DNA of 64,000 bases from an uncultured Oscillospiraceae bacterium. GTDB taxonomy: Bacteria; Bacillota; Clostridia; Oscillospirales; Oscillospiraceae. The DNA is taken from contig CAKTOB010000001.1 in NCBI GenBank assembly GCA_934589525.1, positions 1 to 64,000 of the forward strand. The letters run 5' to 3'. A program made the position numbers and the translations under genes. The notes under the pieces are model-generated. The model was not told the DNA's origin. It did not search any database and saw only the letters and a program-made list of their open reading frames with translations. Below are positions 11,102 through 35,945 of this stretch, in pieces. Positions within the stretch are counted from its first letter, which is position 1; the number at the start of each line of letters is the position of its first letter.

Positions 11102-11107
11102 CACATC

Positions 11108-11136: not shown

Positions 11137-11166
11137 CGAAGAAAACCTATTAAAGGAGTTCACACT

Positions 11167-11466: not shown

Positions 11467-11490
11467 TTCCGGGAGGAGGCCCCGATACGA

Positions 11491-11658
11491 TTGCAGCTGC
11501 TGCGGGTCTTTTGTCCTCTTAAAAAGTCCGACCTTTTTGCCCTGCTGGCTCCAATGGCCCTGCGCGCCGCAGTGTTCCTGATCAGCTGGCTTGTGCGCAT
11601 TCCGCTTTTCGCAAGACCGGACGAGAAAATACAGATGCAGCCAGCACAGAAAATGTAA
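11491..11658 (+). CDS. Possible small hydrophobic ORF after the DUF1292 gene
   Basis: After the DUF1292 stop the same frame remains open to a TAA at 11656-11658. From a TTG at 11491 it would encode about 55 residues with a central hydrophobic helix (A-L-L-A-P-M-A-L-R-A-A-V-F-L). GGAGGAGG lies about 13 bases upstream, which is too far for an ideal RBS. It may be a real small membrane peptide, a remnant of a longer C terminus, or chance. Confidence 0.2.
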   Translation: MQLLRVFCPLKKSDLFALLAPMALRAAVFLISWLVRIPLFARPDEKIQMQPAQKM

Positions 11659-11667
11659 AAATTTTTA

Positions 11668-11720
11668 CCCCTGACGTCCATAAGGAAGGATCCTTAAAGT
11701 ACGTCAGGGGTTCTCTTTTT
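11668..11720. terminator. Bidirectional terminator between convergent genes
   Basis: Ten-base arms CCCCTGACGT and ACGTCAGGGG enclose a loop with its own AAGGATCCTT palindrome. A T-rich tract follows on the plus strand and a shorter T run on the minus strand. Confidence 0.75.
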
Positions 11721-12846
11721 ATTCTTCCGCAATGACCAATTCCACGTCACCGGAGACCGTTGTAATCCGGCAATTGCCCATGGGGGTACCGTCCTCCACG
11801 TCGATGTCGCCGGAAACGGTGCCGGTGGTGAAATGCTTGCCGTGGAGAAGGGACCCGGAGATGTCCCCGCTGACGGTTTCCAAATACATGTCCTGTCCGT
11901 CCACCCGCTGCAAGTCCATGTCTCCGCTGACCGTCTTGCAGCGGAAAGTTCCTTTCGACAGGGTGTCCACCAGGTCCATATCCCCGCTCTTGCTCTCCAA
12001 TACCAGGCTTTTTCCACAAACCCTGTTCAGCTCCAGATCGCCGCTGGCACAGTGGATTTCCAGCGTGTCCGCCAGGACGTTATAGAGGTCCATATCTCCG
12101 CTGGCCGTCCGCAGATTGACGCTTCCAAACCCCGCCTCTTTCGCGGAGATCTCTCCGCTGCCGGTCTGGATCTGAACCCGCTGAGAAAACCGTCCGCTCA
12201 GTTCCACGTCACCGCTGGCGGTCTTCACGTGCAAGGCATCTCCGAAAACGCCGCCAAGCTCCACGTCGCCGCTGGCGGTCTGAATCTCCACCCTGCCGCC
12301 GAAGGTACCGGAAAGGGCAATATCGCTGCTGGCGCCGGAGACCCGGACGGAATCGAAGCTCTGGGCAATTTCCATTCCACCGCTGGCGGTGGTAATATCC
12401 AGGCTCTCGTAGCACCCCTGGGGCAGATACAGGGTCATTTCCCCGGAGCTGCCGGAGAACAGACGCCGGGGCAGGGGCTCCTTGTTCCGGAGGATCCGCA
12501 AGGTCCCGTCCTCCAGACGGACCTCGTGATACCGGTCCTGCCCCTCCAACCGATAGCGGGGTTCCTGAGTGGGGCAGATATGAATGTCAAATTCCCGCTC
12601 CTGAATCACCACCCGGCGGATTTCACCGGATTGCGCACCCTTCTCCCGGGGCACCACTGTGACACTCTGGACGCAGTTTGCCAGGATTTCCTCCACGGTC
12701 CCCACCTGGGCCACGGCCTCCTCCTCGGCCATGCCGTCCTCCATCCGGTCGGCAATCATCTCCCGGTAAAATTCCAGAACCGATTCCCCGTCCCCGGTGC
12801 CCGCAAGGCCCGCTTCCAGCCTGTCCAAAAATTCCTGCTTGGTCAT
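11719..12846 (-). CDS. DUF1700/DUF4097 fusion protein with SGD repeats
   Basis: A 375-residue protein. Residues about 1-60 match the DUF1700/HAAS helical domain (M-T-K-Q-E-F-L-D-R-L, then a V-A-Q-V-G-T-V-E-E-I-L motif). From about 120 to the end it has roughly ten degenerate repeats of about 19 residues with the core x-S-G-D-x-x-L, typical of the DUF4097 beta-helix. In Firmicutes these domains occur with PadR regulators and are thought to act in envelope stress; the role is unproven. The ATG at 12846 has AGGAGG upstream and overlaps the stop of a 48-residue ORF. No TM segment was seen, so it is probably cytosolic. Confidence 0.85.
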   Translation of the reverse strand: MTKQEFLDRLEAGLAGTGDGESVLEFYREMIADRMEDGMAEEEAVAQVGTVEEILANCVQSVTVVPREKGAQSGEIRRVVIQEREFDIHICPTQEPRYRLEGQDRYHEVRLEDGTLRILRNKEPLPRRLFSGSSGEMTLYLPQGCYESLDITTASGGMEIAQSFDSVRVSGASSDIALSGTFGGRVEIQTASGDVELGGVFGDALHVKTASGDVELSGRFSQRVQIQTGSGEISAKEAGFGSVNLRTASGDMDLYNVLADTLEIHCASGDLELNRVCGKSLVLESKSGDMDLVDTLSKGTFRCKTVSGDMDLQRVDGQDMYLETVSGDISGSLLHGKHFTTGTVSGDIDVEDGTPMGNCRITTVSGDVELVIAEE

Positions 12847-21297: not shown

Positions 21298-22626
21298 TTA
21301 TCGTTTCTTCATGGCCATGATTTCGGCCTTGGTGGTTTTGAACAGCTGCATGAGGGGTCGCTTGGCAGGACAGCCGTAGGTGCAGCAGCCGCAGCCGATG
21401 CAGTCCAGGCCGTAGAGCTTGTGCTCATAGCGGTCGTAGTCCTTCCGGATGGCGGCCACCTGCATCAGCTGGGGAGACAGACCCAGAGGACAGGCCCGGC
21501 TGCACCGTCCGCAGCGCAGACAGGCGGTCATTTCTTCCTCGGCAACTTCCACCTCGTCTGTCACCAGGGCGGTCAGGGCGTTGTTGTTCTTGCAGATGGG
21601 GGCTTCCAGCCCGGTCATGGCAAAGCCCATCATGGGGCCGCCGCTGAGGACCTTCTTGGGGGCCTCCCGGAAGCCGCCGCAGGCATCTACCAATTCCTGG
21701 TGGCTGGTGCCGATCTTGACCCAGAAGTTGCCGGGCTTTTCCACGGCATCGCCGGACACCGTAAAGCCACGCTCCATCAAAGGCTCATTGAAGCACACCG
21801 CCCGGTAAATGGCGTAAATGGTGCCCACGTTATCTACCACGCAGCCTGCGTCCGCCGGGAGCATGCCCAGCTTCAGGTGCTTCTGGGTGATGACGGTGAT
21901 GAGGGACCGCTCGCCGCCCTGGGGGTACTTGGTAAGCACCGGCTGCACATACACCCGGTCATGGCCCTTGACTGCCTCTTCCATGGCGGCAATGGCCTGG
22001 GGCTTGTTGTTTTCAATGACCACCACGCCCTTGGCGTTAGGGAACAGCCGCAGGATCAGCTCCAGGCCCGTGACGATTTCCCGGGACTTGGAGCGCATCA
22101 GCTGGTCGTCACAGGTGATGTAGGGCTCGCACTCGGCACCGTTGGCAATGATGTAGTCGATTTTCTCCGGCTCCTTCACGGTGAGCTTGACGTGGGTGGG
22201 GAACCCCGCGCCGCCCATACCGACGATACCGGCCTTCTGGATACGGGACAGAATGTCCTGATTGGTAAGACTGCTGGGGTCTGTCTCCTGCCCGATGCCC
22301 TCGGCCAGGGTGTATTCCCCGTCATTTTCCACCACAATGGCCATGGCAGAGCCGCCGGAAGCGTTCTTTCTGGGCTCCACCGCCTTTACGGTGCCGGATA
22401 CGGAAGCGTAAATATTGGCGGAGACAAAGCCTCCCGCTTCCGCAATCAGCTGACCGGCCAGCACATGGTCGCCCTTTTTGACCACGGGAGTTGCCGGTTT
22501 GCCAATATGCTGGTTGGTCATATAAACCAGCTCACCCTTGGGAAGCAGGGCCGTCAGGGGGCAGTCCTGGGAAAGCGCCTTGTTTCCCGCCGGATGGACA
22601 CCGCCATGGAACGTTTTGATGTCCAT
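21298..22626 (-). CDS. rnfC: Rnf complex subunit C, NADH-binding
   Basis: A 442-residue peripheral subunit that carries FMN and binds NAD(H), like the Nqo1/NuoF fold. A Gly-rich G-M-G-G-A-G-F-P-T-H nucleotide loop lies near residues 133-142, and two 4Fe-4S motifs (C-L-R-C-G-R-C and C-I-G-C-G-C-C) lie at about 364-412. It is the first gene of the operon. The start at 22626 has AGGAGA upstream and fits the family better than the ATG at 22647. Confidence 0.95.
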   Translation of the reverse strand: MDIKTFHGGVHPAGNKALSQDCPLTALLPKGELVYMTNQHIGKPATPVVKKGDHVLAGQLIAEAGGFVSANIYASVSGTVKAVEPRKNASGGSAMAIVVENDGEYTLAEGIGQETDPSSLTNQDILSRIQKAGIVGMGGAGFPTHVKLTVKEPEKIDYIIANGAECEPYITCDDQLMRSKSREIVTGLELILRLFPNAKGVVVIENNKPQAIAAMEEAVKGHDRVYVQPVLTKYPQGGERSLITVITQKHLKLGMLPADAGCVVDNVGTIYAIYRAVCFNEPLMERGFTVSGDAVEKPGNFWVKIGTSHQELVDACGGFREAPKKVLSGGPMMGFAMTGLEAPICKNNNALTALVTDEVEVAEEEMTACLRCGRCSRACPLGLSPQLMQVAAIRKDYDRYEHKLYGLDCIGCGCCTYGCPAKRPLMQLFKTTKAEIMAMKKR

Positions 22627-22697
22627 GTGTATCTCTCCTATCTTCATTCAAATTTTCTGCCGGGGGGAATTTCCCCTCTGTGGCATACTACCTGATT

Positions 22698-23807: not shown

Positions 23808-25331
23808 TTACATGAAGTTGATGATCTGCTGATCGTCCGCATCCAGGATCCTCTTCATGGCCCGGCGCTCGTTGACCCGCTCGGCAACGATGCCCCGGAA
23901 GCCCAGGAGCTGAATGGCGATCAAGGGAGTCATGGCCACCATGGCCACCACGCCGAAGCCGTCCCGCAGCACCGCCTCACTCCCCTGGAGGCTGACACAG
24001 GCCCCCACCGCCAGAGGCAGGATGAAGCCGGAGGTCATGGGGCCGCTGGCCACACCGCCGGAGTCAAAGGCAATGGCCGTATACACCGGCGGCACAAAAA
24101 GGGACAGCGCAAGGGACAGGAAATAGCCGGGGATCAGATAATACACCAGAGAAAAATCATAGACGATGCGCACCATGCTCAGGGCAATGGAGGCTCCCAC
24201 ACCCAGGCACAGGGCCACCATCATGGATTTTCTGCCCACCAGTCCTCCGGTCACTTCTTCTACCTGGGTATTGAGCACATGGACCGCCGGTTCTGCCAGC
24301 ACCGTCAGCACGCCGGCCCCAAAGCCGAAGGACACCAAAATCGCCGGATGGGCCTGGGAAAGGCTGCTGCCCATTTTGTAGCCCAGGGGCATGAAGCCCA
24401 CGTTGACCCCGGTGAGAAACAGCACCAGCCCTAAGTAAGTAAACACCACGCCTACGGCAATGCGGTTCAGCTGCTTCCGGGAAAGCTTCAAAAACAGCAC
24501 CTGACACACGCCGAAGAACACCACGATCATGCCCAGGGCCAGTCCCACCTCCCGGCAGGTGTGAAGCAACGTATGGCCGAAGGCCCCCAGAATATCGGCG
24601 CTCATTGCAAAATCCGGCACGTCATATACAAGCTCTTTCCGGGACAAAATGCCCAGGATCAGCACCGCCAGCACCGGGCCGATGGAGCACAGGGCCACAA
24701 TACCGAAGCTGTTTTCCTTGCTCCGCCGGTCCCCTAAGACATGGGACACGCCCACGCCCAGGGCCATGAGGAAGGGCACCGTAATGGGCCCCGTGGTCAC
24801 GCCGCCGGAATCAAAGGCCACCGGTAGCATGGAGAGCTTGCCCCCCACAGCCAGCAGCAGGGACAGGGCAAAGAGCAGCATATAAAACAGCATTAAAATC
24901 TGGGACAAAGACTTCTGGAACACGATTTTGAGGATGGCCACCAGCAAAAACGCACCCACACCCACACCCACGGTATAGGTCAGCACCGTGCCGTTGATGA
25001 CGGACTGGACCTGCCCCGCCAGGACCTGTAAATCCGGCTCGGCAATGGTGATCAGCACCCCCAGCACGAAGCAGACACCCAGCAGCAGTTCCAGGCGTTT
25101 CTGTTTAGAAAGTCCGGAGCCCACATGGGCGCCCATGGGGGTCATGGCCAGGTCCGCACCCATGCTGAACAGGCCGATGCCCAGAATCAGCAGGACCGCT
25201 CCAAGGGTGAAGGTGATGAGCTCCGTCCGTGTCAGGGAAAGCACAGGCGTTGCCGCCAACAGATACACCAGCGCCGTAATGGGCAGCACGGACATGAGGG
25301 CCTCTTTGATTTTCGCTTGCAGTTCTTTCAA
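23808..25331 (-). CDS. DUF1538 polytopic membrane protein
   Basis: A 507-residue protein with two tandem DUF1538 halves (about 10-235 and 265-490). Each half has several TM helices and repeats the motifs S-M-G-A-D-L-A-M-T-P-M-G or G-F-M-P-L-G-Y-K-M-G, an E-P-D/E-P-A turn, and an F-D-S-G-G-V segment followed by G-P. The inverted-duplicate look with a conserved F-D-S-G-G-V in both halves resembles an ion-coupled transporter with two substrate loops, which is inference. It starts at TTG (25331) with GGAGG nine bases upstream. Confidence 0.8.
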   Translation of the reverse strand: MKELQAKIKEALMSVLPITALVYLLAATPVLSLTRTELITFTLGAVLLILGIGLFSMGADLAMTPMGAHVGSGLSKQKRLELLLGVCFVLGVLITIAEPDLQVLAGQVQSVINGTVLTYTVGVGVGAFLLVAILKIVFQKSLSQILMLFYMLLFALSLLLAVGGKLSMLPVAFDSGGVTTGPITVPFLMALGVGVSHVLGDRRSKENSFGIVALCSIGPVLAVLILGILSRKELVYDVPDFAMSADILGAFGHTLLHTCREVGLALGMIVVFFGVCQVLFLKLSRKQLNRIAVGVVFTYLGLVLFLTGVNVGFMPLGYKMGSSLSQAHPAILVSFGFGAGVLTVLAEPAVHVLNTQVEEVTGGLVGRKSMMVALCLGVGASIALSMVRIVYDFSLVYYLIPGYFLSLALSLFVPPVYTAIAFDSGGVASGPMTSGFILPLAVGACVSLQGSEAVLRDGFGVVAMVAMTPLIAIQLLGFRGIVAERVNERRAMKRILDADDQQIINFM

Positions 25332-25944: not shown

Positions 25945-25998
25945 TCCAAAAATAGCCGTCCCTCCCGAAGCCGGGAAAGACGGCATCATGTGTAACGT

Positions 25999-26805
25999 TC
26001 AGACGAGCCCCACCGCGTCCGCCCGGCATTGGCGGCAATGACGCAAAACCGGCAGCCGCTTCGCGGCAAGCTCCCGGGCCTCGCACAGCTGCCGGGCCGT
26101 AAGGGCAGGGGCACAGGCCATACTGCCGCAGGGGATCAGGGGCATGACATTCATGACTGCTGCCCCCACCTGCCGCGCCATGTCCGCGATTTTGGAAACC
26201 TCCCGCGCATTGACGCCGGGAACCAGGACCGTATTGATTTTCAATATGCCTCCGGCCTCTCGCCAGGCCCGTATGCCCGCCGCCTGCCGCTCCACCAAAT
26301 ACTCCCCGGCTTCCAGGCCTGTGAGCCTTCCCTCCGGCCCCGTCACATAAGTGTAAAGCCGGGCGGCGTTTTCCGGCCGCAGGGTATTGACCGTGACCGT
26401 CAGCGTATCCACGCCGCAGGCCAGCAGCTCTTCCAGACGTTCCTCCAGCCACAGCCCGTTGGTGGACAGGCACAGCAGCACCTCCGGCAAAAAAACTTTG
26501 ACCAGACGCAGCGTCTCAAAGGTTTCCCCGTTGGCCAAAGGGTCTCCGGGACCGGCAATGCCCACCACCCGGATCTTGGGCTCCTCACGCAGCGCCTCCA
26601 CTGCCCGCTGCGCGGCCTGCTCCGGGGTCAGGATCCGGGAGGTCACCCCGGGCCGTGACTCATTGGCGCAGTCATAGCGCCGGTCGCAGAAGGCGCACTG
26701 CACATTGCACTTTGGCGCCACCGGCAAATGCACTCTTCCGTAGCGTCCCGGGCCGCAGCCCCCAAAGCAGGGGTGCTCCTTCCATTTCTCGCTTAGTACC
26801 GGCAT
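25999..26805 (-). CDS. NifB-like radical SAM protein
   Basis: A 268-residue radical SAM protein with the NifB core: H-P-C near residue 11, the cluster motif C33-N-V-Q-C37-A-F-C40, the NifB-typical Y-D-C-A-N-E-S-R-P-G-V (44-54), and the C-terminal C-R-Q-C-R-A-D-A-V-G (257-266). NifB builds the carbide-containing 8Fe precursor (NifB-co) for nitrogenase cofactors. There is no C-terminal NifX domain. It overlaps the NifH-like gene by 13 bp and is the last gene of the cobalamin-riboswitch operon. Its presence suggests that the adjacent component-1-like complex carries a complex FeS cofactor. Confidence 0.88.
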   Translation of the reverse strand: MPVLSEKWKEHPCFGGCGPGRYGRVHLPVAPKCNVQCAFCDRRYDCANESRPGVTSRILTPEQAAQRAVEALREEPKIRVVGIAGPGDPLANGETFETLRLVKVFLPEVLLCLSTNGLWLEERLEELLACGVDTLTVTVNTLRPENAARLYTYVTGPEGRLTGLEAGEYLVERQAAGIRAWREAGGILKINTVLVPGVNAREVSKIADMARQVGAAVMNVMPLIPCGSMACAPALTARQLCEARELAAKRLPVLRHCRQCRADAVGLV

Positions 26806-27578
26806 AGCTCCTCCAAAGCGTCCTCCTCCATGGGCACAGGGACCACACCGGGGCCGTGGAGCAGCATTTTTTCTGCCAGGGCCCGGAATCCCGCCGCGGC
26901 AGGGCTGTCCGGAAACAGCTCAACGACCGTTTTTCTTCGGGTCTCCGCCTGGGTGATTTCCCGGCTCATGGGAATGGAGCCGGTCAGCTCCGCACCCAGG
27001 TTCCGGGCAAAGGTCTCCACCATTTTTGCGTCGTCCCGGCCGCTGCGGCCGTTATAAATGAGCCCCGCCAAACGGGCCTCCCCCTCCCGGGCATAGCGAG
27101 CAATGCCCTTGCAGATGTTGTTTGCCGCATACATGGCCATAAAATCCGCAGTGGTCACCAGATAAACATCCCGGGCAATGTTCTCCCGCAGAGGCATGGA
27201 AAATCCCCCGCACACCACATCGCCCAAAACATCATAGATCACCACATCCCGGTCCGCCAGCAGGTCCTGCTCCCGAAGCTCCCGAAGAGCCCCGGCAATG
27301 CCCCGTCCGGCACAGCCGGTTCCCGGTTCCGGCCCTCCGGACTCCACACAGAGGATGCCCCCGTAGCCCAGAACGCCAAAGGGCTCCTGGGTATTGCTCC
27401 GCAGCCGGTCCAGAACCGTCGGGATCCGCCGCCCCGTCAGGCAGCGGGTGGTATCCGCCTTGGGATCACAGCCCACCACCGCCACCTTCCGGCCCATGTC
27501 CGCCATGGCCGCCGCCACATTGGTGACCGTGGTGGATTTTCCGATGCCGCCTTTTCCATACACACAGATTTTTTTCAC
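26793..27578 (-). CDS. NifH-like nitrogenase reductase homologue
   Basis: A 261-residue P-loop ATPase of the NifH/BchL/CfbC family, slightly shorter than NifH. The Walker A is G-K-G-G-I-G-K-S-T-T (8-17), with G-C-D-P-K-A-D-T-T at 36-44. The two Cys that bridge the 4Fe-4S cluster of the dimer are in C-A-G-R-G-I (Cys89) and D-V-V-C-G-G-F (Cys123). It would deliver electrons with ATP hydrolysis to the adjacent D/K-like complex. It overlaps the previous gene by 4 bp. No draT/draG site context is visible. Confidence 0.92.
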   Translation of the reverse strand: MKKICVYGKGGIGKSTTVTNVAAAMADMGRKVAVVGCDPKADTTRCLTGRRIPTVLDRLRSNTQEPFGVLGYGGILCVESGGPEPGTGCAGRGIAGALRELREQDLLADRDVVIYDVLGDVVCGGFSMPLRENIARDVYLVTTADFMAMYAANNICKGIARYAREGEARLAGLIYNGRSGRDDAKMVETFARNLGAELTGSIPMSREITQAETRRKTVVELFPDSPAAAGFRALAEKMLLHGPGVVPVPMEEDALEELCRY

Positions 27579-28771
27579 TGATACAGCCCGCCTTTCAAGG
27601 TCCTTCCATGGAATATTTCATTGAGGATGTCCTCCACCAGACACAGTGTGCCCTTGACCCCCACATAGGGCCGGTCGCTGAGGACCACCCGGTCAAATAC
27701 CGGATAGTCTATCCGAAGCACCGGGATCCCCAGCTCATCCCCCAGCTCCTGCTCAAAGGAGCTGGCAAAGAGCATGGCGCTCTCCCCCTGCCGCACCCGG
27801 TCGTAAAAATCCTCCAGCTCCCGGGTATCCTCCCGGGCCGCCGCCACCTCTACCCGGAAGCCCAACTCCCGGCCCAGGAACGCAGCCATGCCGCCGGAAC
27901 GGCTGCCGCAGGCAAGAACGCTGACGGGCACATTCAAAAAGTCCTCCAAGTAGCTATAGACCCGCTTCAGCTCCCGGCCGGTATCCTCCCGGAAGGCCCG
28001 GGCCTCCCGGCTGTAGTCCAGGCCCAACCGTTCCTCCAGCACCTTCCACAGCCTCTTTGCCCCGGTCAGCCCATAGGGGTAGTCCAGCACCGCATAGGGA
28101 ATGCCATACACCCTGCACATCTTCTTTGCCAGCGCCGTTCCTCTGCCGAAGCACAGATTCAGAGCAGCCTCCGGGGCCCGTTCCAGCTCCGCCAAGGTGC
28201 ATTTTCCAAGAACGCAGCCCAGCTCCGCCTTTCCGGCCAGAAGCCCCTCTATTGCGTCAATATCCGCTTTGAGGCGGTAGTCATCCGCCCCAAGGCCCAG
28301 CAGATTGATTTTGGGCACCGGGCCCGACGCTTCCCCGGCAGGCTTCATGAGCCCCGCCAACGCCAGGGCCGCGGCCTCGTAGCCGTCCTGAAAGCTTCCC
28401 CTGTAACCCGCGGCCTCCAGGACCAGGACCGGAATCCCCGTCTCCCGGGTAAATTCCCCGGCCACAGCAGCCAGATCATCCTGGATCATATCGCTGACAC
28501 AGCCCTGCAAAACAAAAATCTGCCGGGGTCTGTAAAGCTCCTTCATATTCTCCAGCGCCAGGCGGAAGGAATCCTCTCCGGAAAATACAATGTCGCTGTC
28601 ACTGAGCACCGTACAGCTCTGACGCACGTCTGACATGTCGCAGGCAGTAAAATGATAGCCCATGGAGCCAAAATTGCAGCCTACCACGGAATGCAGCAGC
28701 GTCACCCCGTCACTGATCCCGGTAAATACCTGCTGCGCTCCAAACAATTTGCATCCGTATCCGGCTTTCAC
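27575..28771 (-). CDS. Nitrogenase component-1-like subunit with three conserved Cys
   Basis: A 398-residue protein of the oxidoreductase/nitrogenase component 1 family. The three P-cluster-type cysteines are all present: Cys7 (G-C-K-L-F-G-A), Cys32 (V-V-G-C-N-F-G) and Cys91 (L-Q-G-C-V-S-D-M-I-Q-D-D), plus Cys44 and Cys53. Cys207 (N-L-C-F-G-R) lies 14 residues before Y-G-I-P, the same spacing as the FeMo-co ligand Cys275 in NifD, but no equivalent of NifD His442 was found; the C terminus is NifK/N-like (P-V-F-D-R). It starts at GTG 28771 with GGAGG upstream and a 4-bp overlap with the upstream gene. Confidence 0.85.
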   Translation of the reverse strand: MKAGYGCKLFGAQQVFTGISDGVTLLHSVVGCNFGSMGYHFTACDMSDVRQSCTVLSDSDIVFSGEDSFRLALENMKELYRPRQIFVLQGCVSDMIQDDLAAVAGEFTRETGIPVLVLEAAGYRGSFQDGYEAAALALAGLMKPAGEASGPVPKINLLGLGADDYRLKADIDAIEGLLAGKAELGCVLGKCTLAELERAPEAALNLCFGRGTALAKKMCRVYGIPYAVLDYPYGLTGAKRLWKVLEERLGLDYSREARAFREDTGRELKRVYSYLEDFLNVPVSVLACGSRSGGMAAFLGRELGFRVEVAAAREDTRELEDFYDRVRQGESAMLFASSFEQELGDELGIPVLRIDYPVFDRVVLSDRPYVGVKGTLCLVEDILNEIFHGRTLKGGLYQ

Positions 28772-30276
28772 GGCTGTGCCTCCTTTCTTCTGTCCAGCCA
28801 CATCCGCTCCCACATCTGCCGGGCGGCGGAGGTGGAGGCGTTTGAGCAGCGGGGATAATCATCGGTATCAAAGGGCATCCGCCCCAGCACCAGCTCCTCC
28901 CGGGGCTCCGCCGTCTCCAGGCAGGCCGCAAACCGCTTTACCATCCGGATATAGGAATCAAAGCTGGGCCCCGTCAGCCGGTTCACCGCCCCGATCAGCG
29001 GTGCGCCCAGCCCTTCCAGAGTCAGATCCTCGGTGCCGACCACCGCATCTGCCTGGCCAAAAAGCCGCCCCAGGCACGCCCGGTCCGGATTGACCAGCAC
29101 CTTCGTCCCCGGAGAGAACAATTCCACCGCCTGGTCGATACGGTCCATTAGATTGGCTTCTATTTCCGGGGTGATGCCGGAGGTCACCTTCATCCGCTGG
29201 GTCTGGAATACGCAGACCGCCTGAATGGGCATTTCCAGCTCCTTGGCATAGGTCTTCAGGGTGAAGGGCACGCTTTGCAGCCCCCGGCACACCAGTACCC
29301 CCCGGTGCTGCCGGATATAGGCCTTGGCCTGGGCGGTCTGCTGCCGTACCCGGTCCGTCTCCCGGGCTACAGCCTGCGCCATGGCCTCCTGCCGCCCAAG
29401 CTTTTCTCCGATATCCGTATAAAACCGGGCGATCCCGTCCAGTCCCACATACCGGCCGCTGTCATTCAGGTGCAGGTAGTCCGTACCGTAGAGCGCCTTC
29501 ATACGCCGGGCCCAACGGATACGTTTTACCAGATTCAGCTGTGCCGCCGGTGCCTTTTTCAGCTGCTCCACGGAGGTACTGGGTATCCAGGTATTGACCG
29601 TAATGCCCGCAAGGCCCAGAGTCTTCTCAATTTCCCGCAGCACCAGCTTTCCCTCGCTGCCCCAGCCCACGGTTTCTATATTCACGCTGCCGGGGATCAC
29701 CGGCTGCTTTTCCATGACCTGCCCCACAATGGCGTAGAGGGCTTCCGTAAAACCGCAGCCCTTCAGCTCCATTTCAAGGGTCTCATTTCCCGTAAGCTTC
29801 TGCTTGGACAGCTCCTTCAGCCTGTTTTTTGAGTAGTTTTTGTCCCGATGGGAAAACAGCTCCGACTGGACGCCCACCACCGGAATCCCCTCCCGCCGCA
29901 GCCGTTCCGCTGTTTCCAGAACGGCCTCGTTGAGGATGTCGCTGACCGGTGTGGGCACCACAAAAATCAGCTCCGGCTGATAGCGGCTCCAGGCCTCCCG
30001 GAGGGTCCGCTCCAGCTTTTCCCCACCGCCGAAAACGATTTCCTCCTCTCCCAGGTCCGTTGTCAGTACCCGGTAAAAGGGCTGATGCCGCCGCCGGGCG
30101 CTGAATCGGTAATGAAAGCCGCAGCCCAGAGGACCGTGGAGCACAACCAGCACGTTGCCCTGGATCTCCCCGATGGCCCCCACGCTGCCGGAAACCTTTC
30201 CGTTGACCCCAAAGGAATGCAGCAACCGGGAGGGGTACACCGCCGTTGCCAACTCGTCAAAATAAATTCGATCCAT
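28768..30276 (-). CDS. Divergent nitrogenase component-1-like subunit with one conserved Cys
   Basis: A 502-residue partner subunit of the same family. H-G-P-L-G-C-G (Cys52) and D-L-G-E-E-E-I-V-F-G-G (74-84) are clear component-1 hallmarks. The positions of the other two P-cluster Cys are Ser/Gly (G-S-V-G-A-I-G-E, about 30-37) and Pro/Val (V-P-T-P-V-S-D-I, 107-114), so it can supply only one ligand. Together with the three-Cys subunit this gives a 3+1 arrangement, comparable in number to BchN/BchB. The ATG at 30276 overlaps the ATPase stop (TGATG) and has GGAGG upstream. Confidence 0.85.
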   Translation of the reverse strand: MDRIYFDELATAVYPSRLLHSFGVNGKVSGSVGAIGEIQGNVLVVLHGPLGCGFHYRFSARRRHQPFYRVLTTDLGEEEIVFGGGEKLERTLREAWSRYQPELIFVVPTPVSDILNEAVLETAERLRREGIPVVGVQSELFSHRDKNYSKNRLKELSKQKLTGNETLEMELKGCGFTEALYAIVGQVMEKQPVIPGSVNIETVGWGSEGKLVLREIEKTLGLAGITVNTWIPSTSVEQLKKAPAAQLNLVKRIRWARRMKALYGTDYLHLNDSGRYVGLDGIARFYTDIGEKLGRQEAMAQAVARETDRVRQQTAQAKAYIRQHRGVLVCRGLQSVPFTLKTYAKELEMPIQAVCVFQTQRMKVTSGITPEIEANLMDRIDQAVELFSPGTKVLVNPDRACLGRLFGQADAVVGTEDLTLEGLGAPLIGAVNRLTGPSFDSYIRMVKRFAACLETAEPREELVLGRMPFDTDDYPRCSNASTSAARQMWERMWLDRRKEAQP

Positions 30277-30947
30277 CAGTCGTCCTCCAAAGGTGTAAAT
30301 ACGCCCCGCTCCACGGTATAGATCCGGTCGCAGACCTGATCGCACAGGGCCCGGTTGTGGGAGACCATCAAAAAGGCAGCGTTGCTTTCCTTTTGATAGT
30401 CCTTCAGAATGTGGATGACCTGGACCTGGGTGATCACATCCAGCATACTGGTTGGCTCATCCAGCACGATGATTTCCGGCTCCAGCAGCAGTATTCTTGC
30501 CAGCGAGGCCCGCTGCAGCTCTCCCCCGGAGAGCTCCGCCGGCCGGCGCATCAGATGCTCCTCATAAATGCCAAACCGCTTCAGATATTCCAGCATCCCC
30601 TGGTAGGTATAGGGCAGCCGGTATTTTCGGTAGGGTTCCGTCATGCTCCGCAGCAGGATCAGCTCCGGGTTGAAGGAGGTCTCCGGATGCTGAAAGAGGA
30701 TCTGGATTTTCCGCCGGACCTCCCCGGTGTAATTCATAGAAACAGGCTTGCCATGGAACCGGATCTCCCCGGAGGTCGGCCGCAGCAGCCCCGCCACCAT
30801 CATGCCCAGAGTGGTTTTTCCGCTTCCGCTCTGGCCGAAAAGCCCCAGCGTCTCCCCCGGCTCCAGACAAATATGGGCCCGGTCCACGGCAGTCACACCG
30901 CCGTTGTCAGCGTAACGCTTCGTCAGCGCAACGGTTTCCATCAGCAT
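30276..30947 (-). CDS. ABC transporter ATPase (Dpp/Opp/Nik F-type)
   Basis: A 223-residue ATPase: Walker A G-Q-S-G-S-G-K-T near residues 38-45, signature L-S-G-G-E near 140, Walker B I-I-V-L-D-E-P-T near 158-165. It lacks the C-terminal oligopeptide-family extension, like NikE. It is the second ATPase of the importer. It overlaps the upstream ATPase by 41 bp and the downstream nitrogenase-like gene by one to three bases, which places transport and reductase genes in one transcript. An ATG at 30941 is an alternative start. Confidence 0.87.
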   Translation of the reverse strand: MLMETVALTKRYADNGGVTAVDRAHICLEPGETLGLFGQSGSGKTTLGMMVAGLLRPTSGEIRFHGKPVSMNYTGEVRRKIQILFQHPETSFNPELILLRSMTEPYRKYRLPYTYQGMLEYLKRFGIYEEHLMRRPAELSGGELQRASLARILLLEPEIIVLDEPTSMLDVITQVQVIHILKDYQKESNAAFLMVSHNRALCDQVCDRIYTVERGVFTPLEDD

Positions 30948-31866
30948 AGAGCCAACACCTCACTTTCTGTCCGTCTACATCAAAGAGCGGCGGATTTTCC
31001 TTGCAGCGATCCCAGCAGCGGCGGCAGCGGTCATAGTACCGGCAGCCCTTCGCCTCCTCCAGATAATCCTCGTGGGGCGGCGCAAAGCCATGGTCCTCAT
31101 AGCGCATACCGTTTTCCGGCATGGCGGCGATCAGGTCCTGGGTGTAGGGATGCAGGGGATGCTCCAATACGCGACGGGTCTCTCCGCACTCCAGCTGACA
31201 GGCGGCATACATGACGCTGACCTGGTCACTGACGGCCTTGGCAAACAGCACGTCATGGGTCACGCACAGCAGCGTCTCCCCCTGCAGCTGCCGGAAGGCC
31301 TGGGTCACCGTCTGCACCCGGGCCTCATCCAGGCCCTTGGTGGGCTCATCCGCCAGCAGCAGTCCTGCCCCGGCGGCGATACCCATGGCCACCATGGCCC
31401 GCTGCCGCATGCCTCCGCTGAACATATGGGGATAGGCCCGGGAGCGCTCTTTGCCCGGTGTCAACCCGAACCGTTCCAGCAGCTTTTCCGCCGCGGCCAG
31501 CGCCGATTTTTTGGATTCCTTTCCGTGAATGATCCGGGGCTCTCCCACCTGGTAGCCAACGGTCATCAGAGGGTTCATGCTGCCGCCGCCACCCTGGGGC
31601 ACATAGGCCAGCTTGCTGCCCCGCAGCCTCTGCATTTGCTTTTCCGGCAGGGATAACAGGTCCTGACCGTCCAGAAGGATCTCTCCGGAAATTTTTGCAT
31701 TGGGCGGCAGCAGACGGATCAGCGCCACAAGCAGGACGCTTTTCCCGCTGCCAGTTTCCCCGATAATGGCGGTGCGGCTGCCCTCCGGCAGGCTCAGGCA
31801 CATATCATCCACAGCCTTTACACCGGCTCCCTCAAATTCTACGGATACATGGTTGATCTCCAACAT
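30907..31866 (-). CDS. ABC transporter ATPase (Dpp/Opp/Nik D-type)
   Basis: A 319-residue ATPase with Walker A G-E-T-G-S-G-K-S near 37-44, signature F-S-G-G-M-R-Q-R near 150, and the C-terminal oligopeptide-transporter domain (H-P-L-H-P-Y-T-Q-D-L) followed by a Cys-rich segment (C-R-Y-Y-D-R-C-R-R-C-W-D-R-C, about 276-289). Such Cys segments in DppD/OppD proteins can bind a 4Fe-4S cluster. An RBS (AAGGAGGG) precedes the ATG. It lies 3 bp after the second permease gene. Confidence 0.88.
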   Translation of the reverse strand: MLEINHVSVEFEGAGVKAVDDMCLSLPEGSRTAIIGETGSGKSVLLVALIRLLPPNAKISGEILLDGQDLLSLPEKQMQRLRGSKLAYVPQGGGGSMNPLMTVGYQVGEPRIIHGKESKKSALAAAEKLLERFGLTPGKERSRAYPHMFSGGMRQRAMVAMGIAAGAGLLLADEPTKGLDEARVQTVTQAFRQLQGETLLCVTHDVLFAKAVSDQVSVMYAACQLECGETRRVLEHPLHPYTQDLIAAMPENGMRYEDHGFAPPHEDYLEEAKGCRYYDRCRRCWDRCKENPPLFDVDGQKVRCWLYADGNRCADEALR

Positions 31867-31869
31867 GGG

Positions 31870-32700
31870 TCATCCCTCCTTTCGCTGGAAGCCGTAATAG
31901 CCCAGCAGCATGAAGCCCAGGGTCGCCAGAGCGGTACAGATAATAGGGGGCAGATACCACCAATAATAGCCCCGAATGACCCCGTTCTGATAAAATGCGT
32001 AGTGCAGAATATTTCCCCAGCTTTTTTCCCCGAAATCTCCCAATCCCAGAAAGCTCAAAGAGGCCTCAGACATCATGGCCGTGGAGACCGCCAGGGCCGC
32101 CCGGGACAGGATCATGTCCTTGAGATTGGGAACAATGTGCTTGAACAGGATCACCGGCGTAGAAATGCCCAGGGCCTTCTCCATTTTTACAAAGGGCATC
32201 TCGCACAGCTGCAATACCCGGGCGCGCAGCACTCGGGCCGTTCCGGTCCAGGCGGTGACGCTGATGGCAATGACGATGGAGGTTTTGCCCGGGTTCATGT
32301 AGGCAATAAGCAGCATGGTCAGGGCCAGACTGGGCAGGGCCATGGTCACATTGGTCAGCCCCGTTACCAGCTTGTCCAGAGTACCGCCGTAGTAGCCCCC
32401 CAGCAGCGCCAGCAGCGTTCCCAGCACCGTTACAAGCAGCGCCGTAAAAATGCCGATGGACAGGGAGATCCGGGTGCCGTAGATCAGCTCACTGAGAATA
32501 TCCTGCCCCACGTCATTGGTGCCCAGCAGATGCTCGGCGCTGGGCTTTAAGTAGGGCACCCCCAGCTGATGGGGGTCATAGGGCGCCAGCTGCGGAGCGA
32601 AAATGGCGATCAGCAGGAAAGCACCCACGATCACGGCTCCCCAGATCATGGCGGCGTTGGGTGCAAAGGCCCGCTTGGGCGGTGTTTTCCGTTCCTTCAT
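31870..32700 (-). CDS. ABC transporter permease (DppC/NikC type)
   Basis: A 276-residue permease with an N-terminal TM helix, the L-G-T-N-D-V-G-Q-D-I-L-S motif of the DppC/NikC N-terminal domain (about 59-71), and five further TM helices with the coupling motif L-G-I-S-T-P-V-I-L-F-K-H-I-V-P-N. It overlaps the upstream permease gene by 4 bp. Confidence 0.88.
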   Translation of the reverse strand: MKERKTPPKRAFAPNAAMIWGAVIVGAFLLIAIFAPQLAPYDPHQLGVPYLKPSAEHLLGTNDVGQDILSELIYGTRISLSIGIFTALLVTVLGTLLALLGGYYGGTLDKLVTGLTNVTMALPSLALTMLLIAYMNPGKTSIVIAISVTAWTGTARVLRARVLQLCEMPFVKMEKALGISTPVILFKHIVPNLKDMILSRAALAVSTAMMSEASLSFLGLGDFGEKSWGNILHYAFYQNGVIRGYYWWYLPPIICTALATLGFMLLGYYGFQRKEG

Positions 32701-33680
32701 TGCAGGCCCTCCCGAATTCTGGGATCAAGCCACCCCAGCAGCACATCTCCCAGTAAATTTCCGCCTACCGTACACACGGCGGAGATCAAAAAGCACAGCT
32801 GCGCCGTTGGATAATCCGAGCTGAGCACCGCCGTATAAAACAGCTCGCCCATGCCCTTCCAGCCAAAAATGACCTCCAGGATCATGGAGCCGGACAGCAG
32901 CCCTCCCAGCTGGATGCACAGCGTCGCCGTATAAGGCAGCATCGCATTGCGCAGCACATGAACCAGCAGCACGCCCCTGCCCGTCCGGCCCTTGGCGTAG
33001 GCCGTGGTGATGTATTCCTCCCGACGGATCTGAGAAACGTTGCTCTTCATGTTCAGAAAATTCGCCGCCGTCCGGAAGAGAACCAGCAGAATCACCGGCA
33101 GCGTGGCGTGATAGGCAATATCGGCAATTTTCTTCATACCGCTCAGGCCCCCCACGGTCATACCGTTGACCGGGAACCACCCCGCCTTAAAGGCGAAGGC
33201 CACCAAAAACAGGATGCCGATGCAGTTGGTGGGCACCGTATGCAAAAACAGCATCACAGGGGTCAGCAGCTTGTCCGTCCACCCTCCGGGCTTCCATCCT
33301 GCGGCAATGCCCAGCAGGGCTCCCAGCAGCCCCCCCAGCAGAAAGGTGGGAATACTCAGCACCAGCGTCCACCCCGCCCGGTTCAGTACGTTGTCCAGCA
33401 CCGGCTTTTTGTTGGAATAGGCGATGCCGAAATCCAGGGTCACCGCACTTTTCATATAGTCCAGATACTGCTGGCCCAGGGATTCATTCAGCCCATATTT
33501 TTCCGCGATTTTTTCCAATTCCTCCGGGGCCTCATACAGCAGCTCATAGTACCGTTCCTGCCCCACCAGGTGCTCCAAGGGGTCACCCGGCATAAAATGC
33601 GCCATGGCAAAGCTGATGGTGATCACGATCCACACCGTCAGCAGAGCTCCGGCCAGCTTTTTCAAAACCCGCACACGCAT
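32697..33680 (-). CDS. ABC transporter permease (DppB/NikB type)
   Basis: A 327-residue permease of the DppB/NikB type: M-P-G-D-P-L near residue 28, about six TM helices, and an A-Y-A-K-G-R-T-G-R-G-V coupling loop. An upstream extension of 43 residues to 33809 is not hydrophobic and is unlikely. ATG 33680 is annotated, but AGGAG lies only one base away, so GTG 33674 may be the true start. The gene follows the binding-protein gene after a hairpin. Confidence 0.85.
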   Translation of the reverse strand: MRVRVLKKLAGALLTVWIVITISFAMAHFMPGDPLEHLVGQERYYELLYEAPEELEKIAEKYGLNESLGQQYLDYMKSAVTLDFGIAYSNKKPVLDNVLNRAGWTLVLSIPTFLLGGLLGALLGIAAGWKPGGWTDKLLTPVMLFLHTVPTNCIGILFLVAFAFKAGWFPVNGMTVGGLSGMKKIADIAYHATLPVILLVLFRTAANFLNMKSNVSQIRREEYITTAYAKGRTGRGVLLVHVLRNAMLPYTATLCIQLGGLLSGSMILEVIFGWKGMGELFYTAVLSSDYPTAQLCFLISAVCTVGGNLLGDVLLGWLDPRIREGLQ

Positions 33681-33734
33681 GCTCCTCTCTTCGGGGACAG
33701 CTTTTCGCTGTCTCCCGGGAAAACAACAAAACAA

Positions 33735-33765
33735 AATAGCGGGACGGCAGTACCGTCCCGCGTTG
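33735..33765 (-). terminator. Hairpin between binding-protein and permease genes
   Basis: GCGGGACGG and CCGTCCCGC arms with a 5-nt loop, followed on the minus strand by TATTTTGTTTTG. A partial terminator or mRNA-stabilising hairpin here would favour high binding-protein levels over the rest of the operon. Confidence 0.6.
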
Positions 33766-33850
33766 CAAGGGATCTGTTTCGGTCGGCAAGGGCCAGTCAG
33801 GGGCATCACCGACGCCCGGCCCCGGCCAACGATTCACAGGTTCCTTCGGA

Positions 33851-35563
33851 TCATTTTACCGCAATGTTGTAGAACAGGACCGGAGTCACAACACCGATGG
33901 CGGGGTAGTACAGCAGGTTGTCAAACTCGTCGGTCCGATAGGGGAAGAAGCAATCCTCCCAGGTTAGAGCGAAGCCATAGAGATTTTCGGAAACGATCTT
34001 CTGCAGCTCCTTGACCGCCGCCACATATTCCTCGTCGGAATTGGCATCCTGCAGGGCCTCATAGGCCTTGTTCAGCGCCGGGTCGTCCAGGGTGTCGCCC
34101 CAATTGTAGCCGCCGGAGCCTGCCACAGCCCGGTTCAGGAAATACCAGATGGCGGTGCGGTAGGAGGCGATGCCGCTGGTGGTATAGCCGATGAACAGGT
34201 CATAGGCGCCCTCCGTGACCATGGCCTTGTTGGCCTCGCTGCTGGTCAGCGCATCCGTATCGTAATAGGCGTTGACACCGATCTTCTTCAGGCCGTCCAC
34301 CATGATCTCACCGATGCGGTTGAACAGCTCCTGCTTGGCCTTGGTCATCTGAGAGGAGACCTTGTAGGTAAAGGGGGTGCCGTCCGGCAGCTCCCGGAAG
34401 CCGTCGCCATCCGCATCCGCAAAGCCCGCTTTATCCAGGATGCTGTTGGCCTCATCCACGTCGGTATAGAATTTCCACAGGCTGTCGTCATAGCCCACGT
34501 TCACAGGCGGGATCACGCCGGAGCCGGGGGTCTGGCCGTAGTCGCCGCAGGAGAGCTGACGGATCAGATCCCAATCCAGACACTTGACCACCGCCTCCCG
34601 GAATTCATAGACCTGGTTGGCGGCGTTGAGCATACCGAAGGTGGCCTGGTTGCAGCCGCTGTATTCGCTGCGGCCCTCGTCGATAAAGTCCTTTCCGGCG
34701 ATCACGTCCAGCAGGGTGTAGCTGGTGGGGGAGGCGTAGTCATAGATCAGGTCGATCTCTTTGTTGGCCAGCGCCATGAGCTCGGAATCCTTGGAGGAAT
34801 AGGACTTGAGGGTGATCCGGTCTACCTTGATCTCGCCCAGATAGCCGTTGCCGGGGTAAGCGTCAAAGACCACGATGCCCGCGTCGGTATCCACGCTGGT
34901 CAGGCTGTAGGGGCCGCAGCCGATGGCGGCATCGGGCTCCGCGTAGTTGCTGGGGTCATCCACCTTTTCCCAGATGTGCTTCGGCAGAACGCCCTGGGTA
35001 ATGGGGTTGGAGCGGACCCAGTAGTAGGCGTCGGGCTGGCTGAAAACGCAGGTGACCTGGCCTTCATTGTCCACCCGGACCTCGGTCAAGTTCTTGAGAG
35101 CCGGGGACTTGATCACATCCCGGCGGTACTCCATGGTAAATACCACGTCGTCGGCGGTCACAGGCTCTCCGTCGTGCCAATGCTTGTCCGTGGGGAAGGT
35201 CATGACCAACTCACAGCCGTCCTCGGAAATTTCGTAGCTCTTCGCAAAGTAGCCCTGCACCTCGTTGTTCTCGTTCGGGAAGAAGAAGGTGGGATTTGTG
35301 ACGCAGTTGTACTGAAATTTGCCGATGGCGCCGGACTGGGAGTAAATGCTGGTGGCATCCGGCTGGGCGATGGTGCCGATCACCAGGTTTTCCACATGGG
35401 CATTGGGGTCGGCGGTGGCCTGGGTGGCGGTGGTCTGGGCCGTCCCGTTGTCCTGGGTCTCCGGGGCAGCGGTGGCCGTGGTGGTCCCGGCACCGGCAGA
35501 GCCGCAGGCGGCCAGAGACAGCAGCATGGCCACGGCCAGCAGCACGGCAATCATTTTTTTCAT
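33851..35563 (-). CDS. ABC substrate-binding lipoprotein (SBP family 5; peptide/nickel type)
   Basis: A 570-residue lipoprotein. It has the signal peptide M-K-K-M-I-A-V-L-L-A-V-A-M and lipobox L-S-L-A-A-C (Cys about 20), a Thr/Ala-rich linker, then a family-5 binding domain (D-G-E-P-V-T-A-D-D-V-V-F-T at about 131-143). Family-5 proteins bind peptides, nickel or cobalt chelates, opines or glycans, and the ligand here is unknown. It is the first gene after the cobalamin riboswitch. A long open frame upstream of 35563 is not used because AAGGAA supports this ATG and the signal peptide starts here. Confidence 0.88.
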   Translation of the reverse strand: MKKMIAVLLAVAMLLSLAACGSAGAGTTTATAAPETQDNGTAQTTATQATADPNAHVENLVIGTIAQPDATSIYSQSGAIGKFQYNCVTNPTFFFPNENNEVQGYFAKSYEISEDGCELVMTFPTDKHWHDGEPVTADDVVFTMEYRRDVIKSPALKNLTEVRVDNEGQVTCVFSQPDAYYWVRSNPITQGVLPKHIWEKVDDPSNYAEPDAAIGCGPYSLTSVDTDAGIVVFDAYPGNGYLGEIKVDRITLKSYSSKDSELMALANKEIDLIYDYASPTSYTLLDVIAGKDFIDEGRSEYSGCNQATFGMLNAANQVYEFREAVVKCLDWDLIRQLSCGDYGQTPGSGVIPPVNVGYDDSLWKFYTDVDEANSILDKAGFADADGDGFRELPDGTPFTYKVSSQMTKAKQELFNRIGEIMVDGLKKIGVNAYYDTDALTSSEANKAMVTEGAYDLFIGYTTSGIASYRTAIWYFLNRAVAGSGGYNWGDTLDDPALNKAYEALQDANSDEEYVAAVKELQKIVSENLYGFALTWEDCFFPYRTDEFDNLLYYPAIGVVTPVLFYNIAVK

Positions 35564-35621
35564 TAGGGTTCCTTCTTTCCAAAAATATCTATCCAATTGC
35601 GGCTCGACCCGCATCCAGATA

Positions 35622-35653
35622 CAAAAAACAGCAGCCGTATCCCGGCTGCTGTT
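35622..35653 (-). terminator. Expression-platform terminator of the cobalamin riboswitch
   Basis: On the minus strand, AACAGCAGCCG and CGGCTGCTGTT arms, a six-base loop and a following TTTTTTG. It lies between the aptamer and the first gene, so B12 probably causes premature termination. Confidence 0.85.
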
Positions 35654-35744
35654 CTCACTCCGTGTACACTCCGCCTGTCCGGAAGAAACCGGCAGGCCAG
35701 AAACAGGAAGGAAATCCGTAGACCGCAGATTTCAGCTCCAAACC

Positions 35745-35905
35745 CTGCGGCAGGTCTCCTGACTCGAGGCCATGGCAGCGGTCCCCTTCACGGTTTCCCA
35801 TTGGTTTCGGACAGCTGCGGCCTTCTCACAGTGACGGCATCGTTCCGGACTTACACCGGATTCCCTTTTCACCCGCATCTTCGCGGGCACCTGCAAGGCG
35901 TTATC
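35745..35905 (-). promoter_or_regulatory. Cobalamin riboswitch
   Basis: On the minus strand the RNA has the 5 prime arm with CAGGTGCCC, the GAAAAGGGAATCCGGTG box followed by TAAGTCCGGA, the GCCGTCACTGTGA block, and the 3 prime B12 box AGTCAGGAGACCTGCC (35749-35764). These are the conserved blocks of AdoCbl-type cobalamin riboswitches. The next gene is the binding protein of the importer/nitrogenase-like operon. Confidence 0.93.
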
Positions 35906-35916
35906 TTTACACATGG

Positions 35917-35945
35917 ATTCTACAATCGCGCTGTGCGCTTGTCAA
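35917..35945 (-). promoter_or_regulatory. Promoter of the cobalamin-riboswitch operon
   Basis: On the minus strand, TTGACA (35940-35945), a 17-bp spacer and TAGAAT (35917-35922). The AT-rich stretch 35946-36116 upstream holds no visible gene. Confidence 0.85.

Follow-up and report, generated by a model that had tools for sequence, protein, structure and literature searches.

Why would a bacterium place an ABC importer and a nitrogenase-like reductase together behind a cobalamin riboswitch? The question is raised by an operon in a 64,000-nucleotide stretch of DNA from an uncultured, gut-type Oscillospiraceae bacterium (GCA_934589525.1, contig CAKTOB010000001.1), hereafter the window.

Anatomy and recurrence of the operon

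The original prediction described a promoter, a cobalamin riboswitch with a terminator, and nine genes, and Rfam, Pfam and ORF analysis confirmed this layout, the promoter being recognized by its consensus (Table 1). The aptamer belongs to RF00174 by covariance model, its score standing against a gathering cut-off of 31.5 bits and its match covering the full model (1-189). Folding of positions 35740-35560 gave a z of -4.09, a value for the whole stretch and not for the terminator stem alone. The nine ORFs that follow the riboswitch carry, in order, the Pfam domains SBP_bac_5, BPD_transp_1 (twice), ABC_tran (twice), Oxidored_nitro (twice), Fer4_NifH and Radical_SAM, bearing out the predicted identities, i.e., a family-5 solute-binding protein (SBP5), two permeases, two ATPases, two component-1-like subunits (D and K), a NifH-like protein (H) and a NifB-like protein. 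From the first permease gene through NifB, neighbouring genes overlap or lie a few bases apart, and a gap of ~170 bp separates the SBP and first permease genes.

Table 1. Features of the operon, listed from the promoter-like site downstream (window coordinates)
Feature	Positions	Strand	Evidence or remarks
Promoter-like site TTGACA-17-TAGAAT	35917..35945	-	11/12 consensus matches; consensus evidence only
Cobalamin riboswitch aptamer RF00174	35733..35909	-	Rfam 92.4 bits, E 1.3e-21
Putative intrinsic terminator of the riboswitch, 14-bp stem and U-tract	about 35623..35653	-	sequence and fold
Family-5 solute-binding lipoprotein (SBP5), 570 aa	33851..35563	-	PF00496, 149.9 bits
Terminator-like 10-bp hairpin, SBP-permease gap	33739..33761	-	sequence
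OppB/NikB-type permease	32697..33680	-	PF00528, PF19300; predicted start about 33680
OppC/NikC-type permease	31870..32700	-	PF00528, PF12911
OppD-type ATPase, oligo_HPY tail	30907..31866	-	PF00005, PF08352
OppF/NikE-type ATPase	30276..30947	-	PF00005
Component-1 subunit D, 502 aa	28768..30276	-	invariant Cys52, Cys174
Component-1 subunit K, 398 aa	27575..28771	-	PF00148, 201 bits; predicted GTG start at 28771
NifH-like Fe protein, P-loop GKGGIGKST, Cys89 and Cys123	26793..27578	-	PF00142, 315.6 bits
NifB core, radical SAM, no NifX domain	25999..26805	-	258 bits to 6y1x, 232 to 7bi7
Terminator-like 13-bp stem directly after the NifB gene	25955..25984	-	sequence

Above the nine genes, the minus strand has a single promoter-like site, at 35945-35917; its one other such site, at 25416, is downstream of the operon. 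Counting both strands, three promoter-like sites were found versus 3.6 expected in shuffles. A SAM riboswitch (25911-25824, 52.9 bits) sits just beyond the terminator-like stem that closes the operon; neither this element nor the hairpin at 33761-33739 was mentioned in the earlier reading. We rejected the SAM riboswitch as a control element of the operon, as it lies past that stem and is not found in other D loci (none in 25 of them at the gathering score, and none in L018 or L019 at E 0.1).

We compared 28 D-bearing loci, namely the window and 27 fetched ones. A cobalamin riboswitch lies upstream of D on the same strand in 14/28 (the window, L001-L009, L011, L018, L019 and L069), and none was found within the fetched stretch at the other 14, which counts against the explanation favoured below. 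D, K, H and B are adjacent in nine loci (the window, L003-L006, L008, L009, L018 and L069), all nine with the riboswitch, and one of them, L008, comes from Flavonifractor plautii ATCC 29863, a strain available in a type collection. Four fetched loci (L003-L006) repeat the synteny for which the original prediction proposed a search, i.e., a single run of the riboswitch, an SBP5-type importer and D-K-H-B; this recurrence and the anatomy support the view that importer and reductase form one B12-riboswitch unit. At seven riboswitch-less loci (L068, L075-L080), D-K stands beside BtuCD, with H and B not adjacent except in L076.

Importers and B12 genes near the reductase

By sequence, the window SBP5 appears nearest to sugar and oligopeptide binders, a counterpoint to the import of a metal compound: such proteins are its closest solved structures (78 bits), and it scores below every NCBIfam equivalog cut-off for binding-protein models (e.g., 89 bits against 650 for Opp4A and 51 against 600 for NikA). 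Importer genes occur in 25 of the 28 D stretches, eight being of SBP5/Opp type (the window, L003-L006, L008, L014 and L016) and 17 of BtuFCD/FecCD type, the latter confirmed by Pfam (FecCD or Peripla_BP_2) at some loci and assigned by tblastn or blastp at the remainder. The label BtuFCD denotes a type of transporter rather than a substrate, the binding-protein matches all lying below NCBIfam cut-offs. In a tree of D, the SBP5-type loci fall into two separate groups, and the SBP5 of L005 shares 41% with that of L014 and only 23% with that of the window, indicating two kinds of SBP5; the importer has thus been exchanged while D was retained. A story of a single importer swap was dropped, as SBP5-type importers adjoin D in L014 and L016 too. 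Among the D stretches, six from Negativicutes encode TonB receptors (L011, L012, L014, L016, L017 and, partially, L010).

These transporters would also suit an alternative without any macrocycle, in which a Co, Ni or Fe chelate is imported and its metal freed by reduction, cobalt demand explaining the B12 control. Metal chelates are among the possible cargoes of importers of the SBP5 and FecCD types and of siderophore-type TonB receptors; the L014 receptor reaches 202 bits to a TonB-siderophore model (cut-off 223.5), and D-K in L076 directly follows a nitrogenase cluster with AnfG. Nevertheless, we regard this alternative as unlikely, since metal release from chelates is accomplished by simple reductases, making a NifB-equipped, ATP-driven enzyme seem excessive, and since genes of the CobN/ChlID and CbiZ types point to rings.

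CobN lies immediately before D in L017, and the stretch L070, around the same D locus, holds two CobN (912 and 908 against a curated cut-off of 822). This is the only one of the 28 D loci that CobN adjoins, and CobN occurs in only 7/19 host genomes. Because CbiK is present in 19/21 host genomes and CbiG in 17/19, CobN is, judging by gene content, probably not needed in these hosts for de novo cobalt insertion. CobN/ChlD genes preceded by a cobalamin riboswitch occur in three D-bearing genomes, one of them that of F. plautii, where an SBP in the set is 51% identical to the SBP next to the L009 reductase. In L001, the reductase genes and BtuFCD flank a gene for the corrinoid-salvage enzyme CbiZ, an adenosylcobinamide amidohydrolase (164 bits against a cut-off of 27), again the only such case among the 28 loci; this operon has decayed, and its CbiZ gene runs on the opposite strand. 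CbiZ also follows CobN in L090 (204 bits); L085 and the edge of L084 gave additional matches. Genome counts given here and below for CobN, CbiZ, NifB and Met genes refer only to the host genomes of relatives.

The CbiZ finds somewhat strengthen the explanation proposed below and its sharper version, and slightly weaken both the chelate alternative and the methylthio one considered below. Of the two hypotheses in the original prediction, these neighbourhoods (CobN, CbiZ, BtuFCD) favour the one in which the operon acts on a tetrapyrrole, corrinoid or metal chelate tied to B12, such a compound being the putative substrate. Taken together, the relatives suggest that an imported metal compound, e.g., a B12-like ring, is handled rather than nitrogen.

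Ligands and partners of the reductase subunits

D and K appear to fall in no characterised clade among those tested. As far as scores go, D, K and H stand outside the characterised families: D reaches 48 bits to the nifD equivalog against 653, D and K are far below the NCBIfam equivalog cut-offs of DPOR, COR and CfbCD, and H falls short of CfbC (317 vs 402), BchL (213 vs 345), BchX (157 vs 331) and NifH. The VIA-align list contained no CfbD chain, which has no bearing either way.

D does not have the three P-cluster cysteines of NifDK. It keeps one (Cys52, equivalent to NifD Cys88) and has Pro at the NifD Cys154 position; the NifD Cys62 region is outside the alignment, and D has no other conserved Cys column there. 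K has three P-cluster-type cysteines, Cys7, Cys32 and Cys91 (columns 11, 36 and 95 of alignment A2), invariant in 26/26 rows. The FeMoco ligands Cys275 and His442 are likewise missing from D, with a gap at the Cys275 position after LN(L/I)V and no His column at 90% beyond residue 143. Thus, nitrogen fixation was rejected on the D ligands and the lack of NifE/N in the operon. The invariant D-Cys174, near the NifD Gln191/His195 region by element order, is a candidate cluster ligand.

The other hypothesis of the original prediction was a system like methylthio-alkane reductase (Mar), which would import reduced organic sulfur and free methanethiol for B12-independent methionine synthesis when MetH lacks its cofactor. 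The B-H-D-K set without NifE/N is indeed shared, a SAM riboswitch lies just beyond the window operon, and full-length MetE (PF01717) is present in only 3/19 host genomes, none of the ten riboswitch-type genomes among those 19 matching PF01717 at all. The MetH marker PF02965, which tells for neither side, has a strong match in 2/19 and a weak one in 8/19. Yet the ligands speak against the hypothesis: MarD has the P-cluster cysteines and also Cys270 and Arg428-His429 (PMC12552129), whereas the P-cluster and [Fe8S9C] Cys/His ligands are not conserved in the window D, nor are these MarD residues matched (the MarD C-terminal loop being compared by conserved-column counts and not residue by residue). 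Moreover, the BtuFCD importers and TonB receptors of relatives make poor sense for small methylthio compounds, and the position of the SAM riboswitch and its absence from the other D loci searched count against it as well. We therefore consider this hypothesis quite improbable.

Alternatively, D-K could be a NifEN-like scaffold or maturase rather than a substrate reductase, as the best-scoring models of K are NifEN/NifE and its best PDB match is to a NifEN chain. We deem this very unlikely, since five of nine riboswitch-type genomes searched for component 1 (G001-G004, G007) show no other component-1 gene and hence nothing to mature, component-1 genes outside the operon being present in the other four (G005, G006, G008, G013). 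We give hardly any credence to cleavage of a sulfonate C-S bond as by isethionate reductase (Isr), which according to PMC11423573 has the same one-plus-three cysteines in IsrD/IsrK, the same Pro at the NifD Cys154 position and an occurrence in intestinal bacteria, but a BciD-like IsrB with little likeness to NifB, whereas the window B is a true NifB core, its importer is of SBP5/Opp type and B12 control would have no obvious sense. When IsrD of Rhodobacter was sought in plasmid records, NifH and BchL were among the matches listed (60 spread over 268), and NifE relatives were among the best 30 of 233.

The window NifB retains the motifs HPC, CxxxCxxC, ESRPG, GPG and CxxCRxDA, and scores 284 bits to TIGR01290, below the cut-off, matching positions 5-275 of 441 in the model. 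The operon NifB is the sole NifB in 9 of the 10 riboswitch-type genomes searched; NifB and NifH are each found in 20/21 host genomes. A role in anti-phage defence was rejected, as PADLOC gave only weak generic matches, e.g., 31 bits between the radical SAM core and viperin models.

Proposed role and comparison with known systems

We lean towards the explanation that an imported metal macrocycle or chelate is reduced under B12 control to feed the B12 pool. When B12 is low, the riboswitch would, going by its sequence, permit read-through, so that the ABC importer and the four-gene nitrogenase-like reductase are made. The compound taken up by the importer would be a metal-containing macrocycle or a chelate, with a corrinoid, another tetrapyrrole or a cobalt chelate as the likeliest candidates. 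Because its motifs are kept and it is the sole NifB in most such genomes, NifB would build an [Fe8S9C]-type cluster for D/K; a counterpoint is that D and K have none of the known ligands for holding this cluster. Hydrolysing ATP, H would supply D/K with low-potential electrons; these would pass through a [4Fe-4S] cluster between D and K that D-Cys52 and the three K cysteines, given their conservation, probably hold. D/K would then reduce the imported compound, and its ring or cobalt would enter the B12 pool, a CobN/ChlID-type chelatase and CbiZ perhaps finishing the salvage in some relatives or hosts. A sharper version, that of a B12-supply enzyme of the nitrogenase family which carries a NifB-made [Fe8S9C] cluster on non-Nif, non-Mar ligands and, directly controlled by the B12 riboswitch, reduces a corrinoid or cobalt macrocycle taken up by the cell, we put forward tentatively, as a possibility that may well fail.

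With this analysis, a branch of the nitrogenase superfamily that is still uncharacterised acquires a regulated setting tied to an importer, a class of substrates that can be tested, and a NifB of its own. Should the explanation hold, gut anaerobes would be turning nitrogenase chemistry to competition for B12 or cobalt, and we know of no earlier member of the superfamily in vitamin B12 or cobalt salvage.

MarBHDK differs from the window system also in that the latter is importer-linked and has a B12 riboswitch. Light-independent protochlorophyllide reductase and CfbCD share its fold and, in concept, the reduction of a ring, but the window H, D and K lie below the cut-offs of those families, which to our knowledge have no NifB partner. 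The family may be that of the group VI nitrogenase-like proteins, reportedly treated by Meheust et al. in 2020; if so, our findings bear on the open question of an [Fe8S9C] cluster in such proteins. Group VI proteins are called putative tetrapyrrole cofactor genes in PMC9391474 and PMC11257099, and the presence of an active-site cluster in them is described as debated in PMC12176620. Likened by description only, they too are nitrogenase-like with a proposed action on tetrapyrroles, while the window operon has its own NifB, an attached importer and a cobalamin riboswitch. The original prediction knew of no described system with this layout: our literature search found no paper describing the operon, but the same run exists in L003-L006, and group VI was already linked, in those sources, to putative tetrapyrrole cofactor genes. 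A protein search for Elusimicrobia group VI sequences returned 12 proteins, none so named.

Beyond its different IsrB, IsrBHDK has another importer type and another genomic setting. One precedent is the MCR activation complex, where a Ni tetrapyrrole receives electrons from [8Fe-9S-C]-like clusters (PMC12176620); it resembles our proposal in how it works only, i.e., in ATP-linked electron transfer from cluster to metal tetrapyrrole, its proteins being different and archaeal. A second precedent is HmuS, a chelatase relative that removes the iron of heme in bacteria of the gut (PMC12583661). While the window operon has no chelatase gene of its own, the HmuS/CobN superfamily, with CobN homologues close to one D locus and in 7/19 hosts, shares with the role proposed here the anaerobic handling of imported metal rings.

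An operon behind a cobalamin riboswitch

As originally predicted, the window carries a promoter-like site, a cobalamin riboswitch with a terminator and nine packed genes. A terminator-like stem closes the run. The genes encode an importer (SBP5 and OppB-, OppC-, OppD- and OppF-type parts) and a reductase, consisting of the nitrogenase component-1 subunits D (502 aa) and K (398 aa), a NifH-like protein (H) and a NifB core (B). After a gap of ~170 bp with a hairpin between the SBP and permease genes, all genes overlap or nearly touch. The whole reads as a single transcription unit, and a consensus scan (3 sites on both strands together vs 3.6 expected) found no further minus-strand promoter-like site between 35917 and 25416.

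Directly behind the operon lies a SAM riboswitch, accompanied by a terminator-like stem; for the small ORF that follows, neither Pfam nor NCBIfam gave a match (E 0.001). A DUF1538 membrane protein is followed by two small proteins, which may be PII-like. Another protein presumably resembles RnfC of the Rnf complex, and could be a ferredoxin source for the reductase.

Coordinates of features in the window and in stretches fetched from relatives' genomes (L numbers)
Stretch	Feature	Positions	Strand
Window	Promoter-like site to terminator-like stem of the operon	35945-25955	-
Window	SAM riboswitch	25911-25824	-
Window	Terminator-like stem	25809-25787	
Window	Small ORF	25741-25505	-
Window	DUF1538 protein and two small proteins	23808-25331	-
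Window	RnfC-like protein (presumed)	21298-22647	-
L001	D, partial H and B (Flavonifractor sp. An306)	2091-6841	
L008	SBP5-type array (Flavonifractor plautii)	1-8177	-
L011	Split K (Phascolarctobacterium)	11479-12699	
L017	D with in-frame stop (another Phascolarctobacterium copy)	9959-11389	
L076	D-K-BtuCD	3107-11682	-

Riboswitches and importers across the D family

Protein database searches (E 0.001) returned 128 relatives of K and 125 of D, mostly metagenomic among the 120 of each listed, in which the named hosts included Lachnospiraceae, Oscillospiraceae, Flavonifractor plautii, Peptococcaceae, Desulfobacter and Propioniciclava; a scan of genome contigs yielded 19 loci. At E 1e-40, with the query genome included among the positives each time, the D family was rare in the genomes sampled: 2/394 in the order of F. 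plautii, 2/392 in the Parablautia order, 6/63 in the Phascolarctobacterium order and 7/225 in the order of the L009 Clostridium.

We compared 28 D-bearing loci (the window, L001-L019, L068, L069 and L075-L080), excluding repeats of the same place. In 14/28 loci, D is preceded on its own strand by a cobalamin riboswitch, and the importer type is not constant. The L002 riboswitch is truncated by the contig end, and those of L018 and L019 (126 and 116 bits) come from scanning by E-value threshold, the other loci having been scanned by gathering score. No cobalamin riboswitch was found in the fetched stretch of the other 14 (L010, L012-L017, L068, L075-L080), some of which have short upstream sequence (2.6 kb in L010, 1.1 kb in L013).

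SBP5/Opp-type importers accompany D in 8/28 loci (window, L003, L004, L005, L006, L008, L014, L016; SBP_bac_5 Pfam-confirmed in L005, L008 and L014), and BtuFCD/FecCD-type genes in 17/28 (L001, L007, L009-L012, L017-L019, L068, L069, L075-L080; Peripla_BP_2 or FecCD Pfam-confirmed in L001, L007, L009, L011, L018, L019, L069 and L075); at tblastn E 1e-8 no importer was found in L015 or on the short contigs L002 and L013. Importers tied to the D-K family thus belong either to the Opp class or to that of vitamin B12, heme and siderophores. Six of the D stretches carry TonB receptors, and each of these six is from Negativicutes. The five tandem SBP5-type genes of L008, the last truncated by the stretch end, stand behind their own cobalamin riboswitch, divergent from the D-K-H-B operon.

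In a midpoint-rooted drawing of the D tree (35 rows), the window's group comprises 13 rows (98/96). Besides the SBP5-type L003-L006 and L008, it includes L001 and L002, along with five rows lacking neighbourhood information; L015 forms a long branch. Since SBP5-type loci fall both in this group and in a separate Negativicutes group (L014, L016), the tree indicates that importers have been exchanged more than once in the D family. One Phascolarctobacterium copy has an in-frame stop in D and another a split K.

Genomic company of the D-K family

At the limits set, NifB matches were found in 20/21 host genomes (all except G011), as were NifH matches (all except G009). In the ten genomes searched that have the riboswitch upstream of D (G001-G008, G013, G756), there is a single NifB match apiece, which is the operon's own in 9/10 and lies in a separate nitrogenase cluster in G005. 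The D-K pairs of L068, L075 and L077-L080 have neither adjacent H/B nor a riboswitch, with NifH and NifB elsewhere in the genome, and in L076 the pair, with BtuCD, immediately follows a nitrogenase cluster that includes an AnfG/VnfG subunit.

In Phascolarctobacterium (L017/L070), D-K-B adjoins two CobN genes, both above the curated cut-off (912 and 908 vs 822), BtuF/BtuC-like genes and a further H-D-K set. L084, some 10 kb away from D of L014, carries ChlI/ChlD-like genes, another NFL set and a TonB receptor, which we did not assign as a B12 receptor because its match to that best model reached 229 bits, below the cut-off of 600. Second H-D-K nitrogenase-like sets with BtuFCD-type genes, some also with TonB receptors, CobN or ChlI/ChlD, were seen in the Negativicutes stretches L070, L072, L073 and L084.

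The L001 operon, in which K was not found, looks decayed; five cobalamin riboswitches lie within 13 kb there, and CbiZ (PF01955, 164 bits, cut-off 27) stands between the reductase genes and BtuFCD, on the opposite strand. CbiZ also lies between CobN and ChlI in L090 (204 bits), with further tblastn matches among 43 stretches in L085 (49% over 359 aa) and at the edge of L084. F. plautii has a separate cobalamin-riboswitch set, ChlI-ChlD-CobN-radical SAM-SBP, whose SBP is 51% identical to that adjoining the L009 reductase. Three of six fetched CobN stretches (L085-L090) carry the riboswitch (L086, L087, L089). Among host genomes, CobN was found in 7/19, CbiG in 17/19, CbiK in 19/21 and PF01717 (MetE) matches in 4/19, full-length in three (G046, G999, G1000).

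A reading of the D-K enzyme and its precedents

Genes, riboswitch, conservation and neighbourhoods of the D-K family were observed directly. Given the company of NifB and NifH, the changing importers, the frequent B12 switch and the corrinoid-salvage and chelatase neighbours, the enzyme's likeliest role is to reduce a metal macrocycle or chelate brought in by the importer, and so to supply B12 or cobalt; substrate, cluster type and direction of chemistry are what we infer.

Full-text literature searches, covering few subscription papers and hence weak evidence of absence, gave no description of a window-type operon among the matches listed, and no match joining 'nitrogenase-like' with 'cobalamin riboswitch'. 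The paper on the 'group VI' nitrogenase-like proteins may itself mention B12-linked neighbourhoods. Passages of other papers term 'group VI' proteins putative tetrapyrrole cofactor genes (PMC9391474), give them a potential role in tetrapyrrole modification (PMC11257099) and call the presence of an active-site cluster in them debated (PMC12176620). MCR activation (PMC12176620) and HmuS (PMC12583661) serve as precedents that work like the proposed D-K enzyme.
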